From Salvelinus alpinus (lineage: Eukaryota > Chordata > Actinopteri > Salmoniformes > Salmonidae), in assembly GCF_045679555.1 (NCBI RefSeq), contig NC_092087.1:86324364-86388363 (forward strand): a DNA stretch of 64,000 nt, given 5' to 3'. The translations under genes and the position numbers were made by a program. Shown here piece by piece: positions 43,301 through 49,300 of the stretch. Below the pieces are notes generated by a model that had not been told where the DNA came from, did not search any database, and saw only the letters and a list, made by a program, of their open reading frames with translations. The first letter of the stretch is position 1. Each line of letters starts with the position of its first letter.

Positions 43301-46300
43301 TCACAAAGTAACATTCTGACTATGTTGTCTTTCACTAGCAGCACCATATCACCAAGTAACATTCTGACTATGTTGTCTTTCACTAGCAGCACCATATCAC
43401 CAGGTAACATTCTGACTATGTTGTCTTTCACTAGCAGCACCATATCACCAGGTAACATTCTGACTATGTTGTCTTTCACTAGCTGCATCATATCACCAGG
43501 TAACATTCTGACTATGTTGTCTTTCACTAGCAGCACCATATCACAAAGTAACAATCTGACTATGTTGTCTTTCACTAGCAGCACCATATCACCAGGTAAC
43601 ATTCTGACTATGTTGTCTTTCACTAGCAGCACCATATCACCAGGTAACATTCTGGCTATGTTGTCTATCACTAGCAGCACCATATCACCAGGTAACATTC
43701 TGACTATGTTGTCTTTCACTAGCAGCACCATATCACCAGGTAACATTCTGACTATGTTGTCTTTCACTAGCAGCACCATATCACTAAGTAACAATCTGAC
43801 TATGTTGTCTTTCACTAGCAGCACCATATCACCAGGTAACATTCTGACTATGTTGTCTTTCACTAGCAGCACCATATCACCAGGTAAAATTCGGACTATG
43901 TTGTCTTTCACTAGCAGCACCATATCACCAGGTAACAATCTGACTATGTTGTCTTTCACTAGCAGCACCATATCACTAAGTAACAATCTGACTATGTTGT
44001 CTTTCACTAGCAGCACCATATCACCAGGTAACATTCTGACTATGTTGTCTTTCACTAGGAGCACCATATCACCAGGTAACATTCTGACTATGTTGTCTGT
44101 CACTAGCAGCACCATATCACTAAGTAACAATCTGACTATGTTGTCTTTCACTAGCAGCACCATATCACCAGGTAACATTCTGACTATGTTGTCTTTCACT
44201 AGCAGCACCATATCACCAGGTAACATCCTGACTATGTTGTCTTTCACTAGCAGCACCATATCACCAGGTAACATTCTGACTATGTTGTCTTTCACTAGCA
44301 GCACCATATCACCAAGTGACATTCTGACTATGTTGTCTTTCACTAGCAGCACCATATCACCAGGTAACATTCTGACTATGTTGTCTTTCACTAGCAGCAC
44401 CATATCACCAGGTAACATTCTGACTATGTTGTCTTTCACTAGCAGCACCATATCACCAGGTAACATTCTGACTATGTTGTCTTTCACAAGCAGCACCATA
44501 TCACCAAGTAACATTCTGATTCTAGTTTTCTGTAGCAAAGCATTTAAAAGTGTTTTTCATTGCGTACCATAATGAATAGGACCCCAATGTCAAGGAGTTT
44601 GTTTCTGCACACTGATTGTGTTAAGTTTGTTTTGAGTGGATTCTCAAAAATGTATTTGTTAGGCAGTATGTCTGGTGCATAACTGTTTAGTGAGCTATGC
44701 TGTCATATAATAGATATCATTCAGCTGAGAAATGTCCCCAAGAGGTCTGGAACAAGAACAGAATGCTGTCAGAACACAGACAAATATAAGCAGAGAACCT
44801 TGACCTGAGGTGGGTGGAATCTGATGGGCTGATCCATTCTCCTGTTCTCACAACCCAGGTCTGCTATGTGCTCTGTGACACGGAATACAATACATAGCAA
44901 AAGAAAGTCCATTTGTGCAGCGATTCGTTTTACTTCAGCCGCGCAGTGTGTGACGTTGCCGAGATCCTCGTTAAAGCTACTGACACTTCATTATCTCAGT
45001 CAAGCTTTGCTCTCAAGGTGAAGGAGGTTTGTTATAATCACGTTGCAGGCAACATAAATTGCGTCCCAGATGACTTTGTGTGACATCAGAGTAGAGTTGG
45101 ATCTAGAGAAAAGCGGCGCCTGTTGCTTCTAAAATCACAACACTAAGAGAACATCTGTTTGCAAAATCACATGGACGTGGTCAGGAATTCAAGCCTTTTC
45201 CAGTTAGAAGTAACAGAAATGAAGAAAATGATCAGGGGAGATATCTAATGCAACACTTTGCCTTCGCCCTACAATTCAGGGCCTCGGTCAAAATAAACGT
45301 GCTATAAGGGGGAACAGGGTGTCATTTTAGACACAGCCGGCGTTTTAGACGTCAGACAGTTGTAATGTCATTAGCAGGGTCAAAGGTGAAATAGGAATGG
45401 TGAGACATTGTTACCTGGATCCATCAGGGAAGACCAGCATCCCACAGCCGTTGAAGAGTCCGTTCTCGAACTGACCCGTGTAACACGTCCCATCACTTAA
45501 CGTCAGCTGGCCTAGACCATGTCTCAGACCTGGGGGACAGACAAACCAGTTAGTTACTGGCCTAGACCATGTCTCAGACCTGGGGGACAGACAAACCAGT
45601 TAGTTACTGGCCTAGACCATGTCTCAGACCTGGGGGACAGACAAACCAGTTAGTGACTGGCCTAGACCATGTCTCAGACCTAGGGGACAGACAACCCAGT
45701 TAGTTACTGGCCTAGACCATGTCTCAGACCTGGGGGACAGAAAAACCAGTTAGTGACTGGCCTAGACCATGTCTCAGACCTGGGGGAGAGACAAACCAGT
45801 TAGTTACTGGCCTAGACCATGTCTCAGACCTGGGGGACAGACAAACCAGTTAGTTACTGGCCTAGACCATGTCTCAGACCTGGGGGACAGACAACCCAGT
45901 TAGTTACTGGCCTAGACCATGTCTCAGACCTGGGGGAGAGACAAACCAGTTAGTTACTGGCCTAGACCATGTCTCAGACCTGGGGGACAGACAAACCTTT
46001 TAGTTACTGGCCTAGACCATGTCTCAGACCGGGGGGACAGACAACCCAGTTAGTTACTGGCCTAGACCATGTCTCAGACCTGGGGGATAGACAAACCAGT
46101 TAGTTACTGGCCTAGACCATGTCTCAGACCTGGGGGACAGACAAACCAGTTAGTTACTGGCCTAGACCATGTCTCAGACCTGGGGGACAGACAACCCAGT
46201 TAGTTACTGGCCTAGACCATGTCTCAGACCTGGGGGAGAGACAAACCAGTTAGTTACTGGCCTAGACCATGTCTCAGACCTGGGGGACAGACAAACCTTT

Positions 46301-49300
46301 TAGTTACTGGCCTAGACCATGTCTCAGACCTGGGGGACAGACAACCCAGTTAGTTACTGGCCTAGACCATGTCTCAGACCTGGGGGATAGACAAACCAGT
46401 TAGTTACTGGCCTAGACCATGTCTCAGACCTGGGGGACAGACAAACCAGTTTGTTACTGGCCTAGACCATGTCTCAGACCTGGGGGACAGACAAACCAGT
46501 TAGTTACTGGCCTAGACCATGTCTCAGACCTGGGGGACAGACAAACCAGTTAGTTACTGGCCTAGACCATGTCTCAGACCTGGGGGACAGACAAACCAGT
46601 TAGTTACTGGCCTAGACAATGTCTCAGACCTGGGGGACAGACAAACCAGTTAGTTACTGGCCTAGACCATGTCTCAGACCTGGGGGATAGACAAACCAGT
46701 TAGTGACTGGCCTAGACCATGTCTCAGACCTGGGGGACAGACAAACCAGTTAGTTACTGGCCTAGACCATGTCTCAGACCTGGGGGACAGACAAACCAGT
46801 TAGTTACTGGCCTAGATCATGTCTCAGACCTGGGGTATAGACAAACCAGTTAGTGAATGGCCTAGACCATGCCTCAGACCTGGGGTAGAGACAAACCAGT
46901 TAGTGACTGGCCTAGACCATGTCTCAGACCTGGGGGACAGACAAACCAGTTAGTGACTGGCCTAGACCATGTCTCAGACCTGGGGGACAGACAAACCAGT
47001 TAGTTACTGGCCTAGACCATGTCTCAGACCTGGGGGACAGACAAACCAGTTAGTTACTGGCCTAGACCATGTCTCAGACCTGGGGGACAGACAAACCAGT
47101 TAGTTACTGGCCTAGACCATGTCTCAGACCTGGGGGACAGACAATACCAGTTTGTTAGTTAGTTACCAGTTAGTTAGTTAGTTACCAGTTAGTTAGTTAG
47201 TTAGTTACCAGTTAGCCAGGCCATCATTTTAAATAAGAATTTGTTCTTAATTATTTAACCTTTATTGAATAAATAAAGGTTAAATAAAATACAAAGATAA
47301 GTCAGTTAGTTGTTAGTTAGTTAGATTCAAGCTTATTAGTTATCAGATAGTTAGTCACAAGTTAATTAGTTATGTTAGTTATCAGTTAGTTAACGAGTGA
47401 GCAAGTTAGTGCAAAATACAATTGCAATAGACTGACTGTCAAAAACGTTCTAAAATCCCAAACTGGACAAAAATAATAAATGTCAAATTCACTCCAAAAC
47501 GTGAATGAAAGACATCAAAAGACCACCTTATTTTTTATAATAATTGTTCATAAATCACCATGTGGATAAAGGATAAAGATGCCTCATGTGTAAGAGGTTA
47601 ATACAAGGTGAAGAGCTTATTGGACCATATGAAACCATCAGCTCTATAGTATAGCTGCTATATAGACTCTCTGGGTTTCTGCCTGTACCTAGAACTTTAA
47701 AAAAGCCTGTCTGTCTCACCTTTATCCTTACAGACTATACAGTACATGAAGGCCTTTGTTGGTCAAATCTACATGGCTATTCTTCAGGTAGTTGGGTCGT
47801 GAAGTAATTGTGAAGTAACATTATTATAATAGGGCCAGAACACTCAATTGCTCCAAATACCTTACAACCGGAGTCAGGGTCTTTGTCAGTACTTAGAGCT
47901 TGAAAATAGTCAATCTAGCTGTCTGTCTAACTGTCTGTCTAACTGTCTATCAGCTGTCTGTCTAACTATCTATCTAGCTGTCTGTCTAGCTGTCTGACTA
48001 GCTGTCTGACTATCTGTCTGTCTAACTATCTATCTAGCTGTCTGTCTAGCTGTCTGTCTAGCTGTCTATCTAGCTGTCTGTCTAGCTGTCTGACTAGCTG
48101 TCTGTCTAACTATCTATCTATCTGTCTGTCTATCTGTCTGTCTATCTGGCTGTCTAGCTGCCTGTCTAGCTGTCTGTCTAACTATCTATCTAGCTGTCTG
48201 TCTAGCTGTCTGACTAGCTGTCTGTCTAACTATCTATCTAGCTGTCTGTCTAACTATCTATCTAGCTGTCTGTCTAGCTGTCTGACTAGCTGTCTGACTA
48301 TCTGTCTGTCTAACTATCTATCTAGCTGTCTGACTAGCTGTCTATCTAGCTGTCTATCTATCTGTCTGTCTATCTGTCTGTCTATCTGGCTGTCTAGCTG
48401 CCTGTCTAGCTTTCTCTCTAACTATATATCTAGCTGTCTGTCTAGCTGTCTGACTAGCTGTCTATCTAGCTGTCTGTCTAACTATCTATCTAGCTGTCTG
48501 TCTAACTATCTATCTAGCTGTCTGTCTAGCTGTCTGACTAGCTGTCTATCTATCTGTCTGTCTAACTGTCTATCTAGCTGTCTGACTAACTATCTATCTA
48601 GCTGTCTGTCTAGCTGTCTGACTAGCTGTCTATCTATCTGTCTGTCTAACTGTCTATCTAGCTGTCTGACTAACTATCTATCTAGCTGTCTGTCTAACTG
48701 TCTATCTAGCTGTCTGACTAACTATCTATCTATCTGTCTGTCTAGCTGTCTGTCTAGCTGTCTATCTATCTGTCTGTCTAACTATCTATCTAGCTGTCTG
48801 TCTAACTATCTATCTAGCTGTCTGTCTAACTATCTATCTAGCTGTCTGTCTAACTGTCTATCTAGCTGTCTGACTAACTATCTATCTATCTGTCTGTCTA
48901 GCTGTCTGTCTAGCTGTCTATCTAGCTGTCTGTCTAACTATCTATCTAGCTGTCTGTCTAGCTGTCTGACTAGCTGTCTATCTAGCTGTCTGTCTAACTA
49001 TCTATCTAGCTGTCTGTCTAGCTGTCTGACTAGCTGTCTATCTAGCTGTCTGTCTAACTATATATCTAGCTGTCTGACTAGCTGTCTATCTATCTGTCTG
49101 TCTAACTGTCTGTCTAGCTGTCTATCTAGCTGTCTGTCTAACTATCTATCTAGCTGTCTGTCTAGCTGTCTGACTAGCTGTCTATCTAGCTGTCTGTCTA
49201 ACTATCTATCTAGCTGTCTGTCTAGCTGTCTGACTAGCTGTCTATCTAGCTGTCTGTCTAACTATATATCTAGCTGTCTGACTAGCTGTCTATCTATCTG

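Follow-up and report, generated by a model that had tools for sequence, protein, structure and literature searches.

The first paper on the minisatellites called mirages is reportedly that of Canestro in 2002. In amphioxus, mirage minisatellites have been described in Adh3, in the globin genes BflGb6 and BflGb9 and in TnC, with similar repeats in PGBD5, and in the cited parts of these reports the mirages of Adh3 and the globin genes seem not to disturb splicing (PMC3087553, PMC3902484). According to the part cited, the BflGb6 array repeats the intron end together with the start of exon 2, with 6 and 3 copies in two haplotypes (PMC3087553).

A related array is the intron-18 VNTR of human ABCA7, which, in the cited part of its description, has a 25-bp unit whose first two bases are the donor (PMC5954066). 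When the next copy's donor is used, one unit is added and a premature stop results, and this one-unit retention is independent of VNTR length. The frame-shifting events given there amount to 14 and 2%, the one-unit retention being apparently the 2 +/- 1% one, and exon 19 skipping is increased 3.2- to 4.1-fold with longer arrays. We report here an array of this general kind in a fish MORN4 gene. The original prediction knew of no described case of such a minisatellite. This does not hold, as the amphioxus mirages belong to the same type of array and the human ABCA7 VNTR mirrors it on the donor side, so far as the cited parts of PMC3087553, PMC3902484 and PMC5954066 describe them.

The MORN4 gene and its boundary array

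The window, i.e. the whole stretch of 64,000 nucleotides analysed, is C2:86324364-86388363 of the 2.37-Gb assembly. On its minus strand we found MORN4 with four intact coding exons, which give a predicted protein of 157 residues (Table 1). This protein contains MORN repeats (PF02493, 78.1 bits with a cut-off of 22.5), and its best PDB match is MORN4 (6jle_A, E 2.3e-52, residues 1-155 of 157). Both matches and the open frame agree with the prediction that the exon concerned is coding exon 2 of MORN4, and the array-bearing gene is a true MORN4. Its reading frame is unbroken, and the other introns have intact splice sites. Exon 1 has a weak GC donor, with 4.2 bits by a human-frequency matrix, a crude measure that was used for all donor scores given here. 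HOGA1-like exons were also found within the same window; HOGA1 adjoins MORN4 in other vertebrates too.

Table 1. Features of the MORN4 locus (positions in the window)
Feature	Position	Strand	Description
MORN4 coding exon 1	55928..55994	-	67 nt from ATG; donor AAG|GCAAGA (GC donor)
Intron 1	45530..55927	-	10398 nt; minisatellite share 56%
Boundary-spanning minisatellite	45507..47157	-	33 copies x 50 bp: 32 decoy acceptors and the real one
Sole decoy without AG	46002..46051	-	CCCCCCG|G; first exonic base 46029
Two adjoining 300-bp (six-unit) blocks	45803..46402	-	299/300 identical, variants in common
MORN4 coding exon 2	45415..45529	-	115 nt; donor CAG|GTAACA
MORN4 coding exon 3	41103..41212	-	110 nt
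MORN4 coding exon 4	40175..40356	-	182 nt including stop

TRF detected a single array across the border of intron 1 and exon 2, with a period of 50, 33.0 copies and 96% matches. Its unit is TAACTAACTGGTTTGTCTGTCCCCCAG followed by GTCTGAGACATGGTCTAGGCCAG, i.e. 27 nt of the end of intron 1 plus 23 nt of the start of exon 2, and the first 23 nt of exon 2 are the exonic portion of the final unit. The first exonic bases on the minus strand are located at 47129, 47079 and so on to 45529, making 33 positions with a spacing of exactly 50; those of the decoys extend from 47129 to 45579, with the start of the real exon 2 at 45529. The final copy continues into the exon 2 reading frame, so the authentic border forms one end of the array. 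The composition of the unit, as checked in the minus-strand rows of the copies, and the count of about 33 with the true border last had both been proposed beforehand and were confirmed. Thirty-three copies in register cannot be attained by chance. A 100-base query of two units gave 14 matches in the whole assembly, every one within the array, in a search that skips very common words.

Decoy acceptors and premature stops

The AG is kept in 31 of the 32 decoys, and the unit border reads AG|GT in 32 of the 33 copies (31 decoys and the real site). CCCCCAG had been predicted for every copy, which proved too strong: it is exact in 28/32 decoys, the others having ACCCCAG (two), CCCCTAG (one) and CCCCCCG (one). 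The branch-point-like motif CTAAC, expected in most copies, was indeed present within -27 to -13 in 28/32 decoys. That the acceptors are all equal is true of 15 decoys, which are identical to the real site over -20 to +3, and not of the remaining ones; identity extends over -20 to +23 in 14/32 and over all 50 bases in 11/32. Because of these 15 decoys, no local acceptor signal sets the real site apart from the best decoys, and no local feature favours the last acceptor.

Splicing onto a decoy would lead to a premature stop in all 32 cases, after 30 residues in 26 of them and after 40 residues in the other six. The immediate TAA predicted for any decoy is therefore found in 26/32, ten further codons being read in 6/32. 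The AG and the stops bear out the description of the upstream copies as decoy acceptors that would give premature stops. The use of array units as coding sequence was ruled out, since a stop is met from all 32 decoy starts.

It could be argued from these counts that the decoys, which are transcribed before the real site and many of which are equally good, take most of the exon 1 splices, so that this MORN4 copy would be largely silenced by nonsense-mediated decay and be heading to a pseudogene. The nearly complete retention of AG and the stop behind every decoy fit such silencing, but the unbroken reading frame and the intact splice sites at the other introns do not. The published mirages, in the cited parts of PMC3087553 and PMC3902484, seem to leave splicing undisturbed, and the published parallels speak against the earlier suggestion of mostly unproductive transcripts. 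We regard silencing as unlikely, and the other MORN4 copies bear on it as well.

Paralogues and constraint

Our genome search revealed two further MORN4 copies, on C3 and C7. In the C3 copy exon 2 is one base longer, which leads to a frameshift and stops, and the end of exon 3 is altered. The C7 copy can be read as an open frame of 146 residues provided that its exon 2 begins at the homologous place, where the acceptor reads CCCCCCCCCG|G in the assembly, without AG. Nine consecutive C adjoin this acceptor, and a sequence error may account for the loss of AG. A C23 ohnologue was considered and rejected: its match, at positions 45278-45344 of the window, does not fall in an exon and resembles a dispersed repeat, and the 50 kb surrounding the match (5 kb of it N) yielded no MORN4 exon.

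Comparison of the C2 gene with its C7 paralogue gave a dN of 0.185 and a dS of about 1.0. Because dN is far below dS, the C2 MORN4 appears to have been under purifying selection in the past, which argues against silencing, although the ratio is averaged over a time much longer than that of the array. Silencing would find some support in the C3 copy, which is already broken, and in the identity to human MORN4, the C2 copy being slightly more distant (94/146) than the C7 copy (103/146). On the other hand, the assembly seems to contain no clearly intact spare copy, because the C3 copy is frameshifted in exon 2 and the C7 acceptor lacks AG. This counts against silencing and also weakens the earlier argument that the array is tolerated through a duplicate gene.

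Growth of the array in a minisatellite-rich genome

No array was found at the exon 2 border in either paralogue (C3 and C7), and therefore the array would most simply have arisen on the line of this MORN4 copy. Similarity within the array peaks at lag 300 among the twelve lags tried. Because of this peak, and because the two adjoining six-unit blocks (Table 1) are nearly identical and have their variants in common, the blocks represent a recent duplication of several units within the array. The duplication itself, like the anatomy of the array, is directly observed, and this one event (299/300), seen in a single haplotype, may be a sign of length turnover of the array.

Tandem arrays are difficult to assemble, and the true locus might then have one or few copies. 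The variants differ between copies, however, and follow an ordered pattern that includes one clean block duplication; random pieces of the genome, too, commonly contain long arrays of other units. We give an assembly artefact almost no credence, and the copy number of the array may be inexact.

Minisatellites are very abundant in this genome. TRF arrays (period of at least 10, at least 2.5 copies) occupy 56% of intron 1, 66% of intron 2 and 31% (bootstrap 17-48%) of a small random genome sample, for which 20 pieces of 3 kb were drawn at random over ten contigs and 19 proved usable. Arrays are rarer towards exons. Around 40 Sushi-domain matches, hand-picked from 150 listed and many from the same gene clusters, arrays accounted for 13% of the sequence 100-300 nt away and for 4.5% of that within 100 nt; an array lay within 300 bp of 14/40 matches, and none of the 40 was overlapped (within 10 bp). 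Overlap was likewise absent from 13 further MORN-family exon loci and from the seven HOGA1 exons in the window, two of which have estimated ends. One of the four MORN4 coding exons in the window is overlapped by an array, and at exon 1 an array ends 6 bp short. Overlap thus concerns 1 of 64 exons examined (40 + 13 + 7 + 4), a small sample with clustered Sushi genes, in which border arrays could escape the count since a domain match does not end exactly where the exon does. The thinning of arrays near exons is presumably due to selection. The MORN4 exon 2 array is an exception to it and has crossed into the exon.

The exonic part of the unit varies less than the intronic part, with 4 vs 29 variant letters and 4 vs 11 variant types among 32 copies (first copy excluded). 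This unevenness is not unusual: fractions of 0.11 and 0.18 of 351 array-offset pairs from seven other long arrays of the window were as extreme, in a rough control where two of the seven arrays kept half their units in the gapless cut. The low exonic variation was rejected as evidence of selection on the decoys, since the unevenness is equally extreme in 11-18% of offsets. It would also fit a constraint that the real exon transmits to the array copies.

Choice of the acceptor

We consider it probable, at roughly two chances in three, that the array is a boundary minisatellite of the mirage type with unselected decoys, and that the last acceptor is used mainly by exon definition, with some leakage into the decoys closest to it. 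A short segment spanning the intron 1/exon 2 border of an intact-frame MORN4 would have been tandemly duplicated, and growth to 33 copies would have followed by unequal exchange or slippage in an array-rich genome. The upstream copies would remain in the intron, with the spliceosome mainly picking the last acceptor.

Exon definition is established in splicing. The real acceptor, and none of the decoys, is followed by the 115-nt exon with its CAG|GTAACA donor. Only there would the spliceosome meet a genuine exon body whose donor, 115 nt further along, lies at a normal exon distance, and we infer that exon definition favours the last acceptor. The decoys that lie one to four units upstream would be favoured less than the real site, and a minor leak into them is expected because their exons would be 165-315 nt long; the products would stop after 30-40 residues and undergo mRNA decay. 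Tolerance at the scale of 32 decoys is extrapolated from BflGb6 with its 6 and 3 copies, and so long an array may cost more than this leak, as the exon 19 skipping of ABCA7 suggests.

Wrong splices might also be corrected afterwards. Splicing onto a decoy leaves AAG|GTCTGA, a possible donor, and re-splicing from it to a later copy would remove n x 50 nt, until the junction with the true exon 2 gives the correct mRNA without any trace of the wrong splice. The AG|GT at nearly all unit borders would allow such hops, and the remade donor scores 3.8 bits by the human frequencies, close to the gene's own GC donor. Dual donor and acceptor use of AGGT sites is documented in the cited part of PMC10809524, including the UBC tandem array. 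However, the remade donor is weaker than those of exon 2 (6.9) and exon 3 (5.2) and comparable in its weakness to a further site within the unit, CTG|GTTTGT (3.6), and the correct exon 1-exon 2 junction, having the same letters, would be equally re-spliceable, with the loss of exon 2. Such correction is in our view very unlikely. If true, it would explain the survival of the gene despite 32 near-equal decoys and would make the array a recursive splicing system of minisatellite origin.

Comparison with known systems

The mirage-type array of MORN4 offers a natural test of acceptor choice. Because 15/32 decoys share the complete -20 to +3 sequence of the real site, only position and the following sequence can separate the best decoys from it. 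If the last site wins, the locus would be a clean demonstration of exon definition; if decoys win, a gene dying by decoys; and if hops occur, a repair route for splicing. The array also shows a limit in a minisatellite-rich genome, where arrays are scarcer towards exons.

Among open-licence PMC papers we found no acceptor-spanning array in a fish. In human segmental duplications, the growth of minisatellites at exon-intron borders is likewise described, in the cited part of PMC2812944, as altering gene structure. Those internal tandem repeats average 30-bp units x 4 and mostly give longer exons or novel introns, whereas MORN4 has a 33-copy acceptor array. As in human UBC, the tandem units are each bounded by AGGT, a potential donor or acceptor; the UBC units are coding, whereas those of MORN4 are intronic with stops, and dual use is shown in UBC and only possible in MORN4 (PMC10809524, in the part cited).

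The array unit bears a copy of the flanking splice site in MORN4 as in the ABCA7 VNTR. The latter is on the donor side, has a 25-bp unit and is not said in the cited part of PMC5954066 to repeat exonic bases. Its alleles are far longer, up to 9.7 kb, and its effects were measured.

The closest likeness is to the amphioxus mirages, and the MORN4 array fits this class, since its unit spans the boundary and the authentic border lies at one end. In both, copies of an intron-exon boundary lie in tandem beside the true border, and many keep AG/GT. By the cited parts of PMC3087553 and PMC3902484, the amphioxus units are 150-160 bp (Adh3: 10-72 bp) vs 50 bp in MORN4, and BflGb6 has 6 and 3 copies vs 33 in this vertebrate gene; in amphioxus the splicing was tested. 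What is new here is the fish example, the 33 copies, the high share of near-perfect decoys and the minisatellite-rich genome. The MORN4 array thus adds a fish gene to a class known from amphioxus and, in mirror image, from a human disease-risk VNTR.

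Splice sites and intron 1 arrays of the MORN4 copies

Analysis of the MORN4 copies revealed that coding exon 1 is closed by a GC donor (AAG|GCAAGA) both in the window gene (window 55928) and in its paralogue on contig C7 (sequence piece L026). The donor of coding exon 1 is GT (AAG|GTAAGA) in the broken copy on contig C3, which is frameshifted in exon 2. An array was also found close to the exon 1 donor of the window gene, which indicates that both ends of intron 1 are pressed by arrays. In the C7 paralogue, most of intron 1 is taken up by a minisatellite with a 59-bp unit, which is repeated about 163 times over 9.6 kb (L026-L027).

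The border of coding exon 2 in the C7 paralogue reads CCCCCCCCCG|GTCGG (L027, C7:12946773 region), and the AG acceptor is absent. This is either a true loss or a homopolymer error.

Other genes and open frames in the window

Besides a HOGA1-like gene, three open frames were listed by their appearance. The longer minus-strand frame resembles a CNNM first exon.

Features in the window
Feature	Position	Strand	Remark
Open frame	1208-2577	+	candidate reverse transcriptase remnant
Long open frame	9602-11098	-	candidate CNNM first exon
HOGA1-like gene	13892-21681	+	
Open frame	15901-16233	-	candidate Tc1-like transposase remnant
Further array near MORN4 exon 1	55829-55922		few bases short of exon 1 donor

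Minisatellite share of the genome

The random sample consisted of 20 genome pieces of 3 kb (L032-L051), 19 of which were usable. Arrays in these pieces and in the window varied in unit length and came from several chromosomes. Minisatellite arrays made up about 31% of the random sequence (bootstrap 17-48%), which seems very high for a vertebrate.
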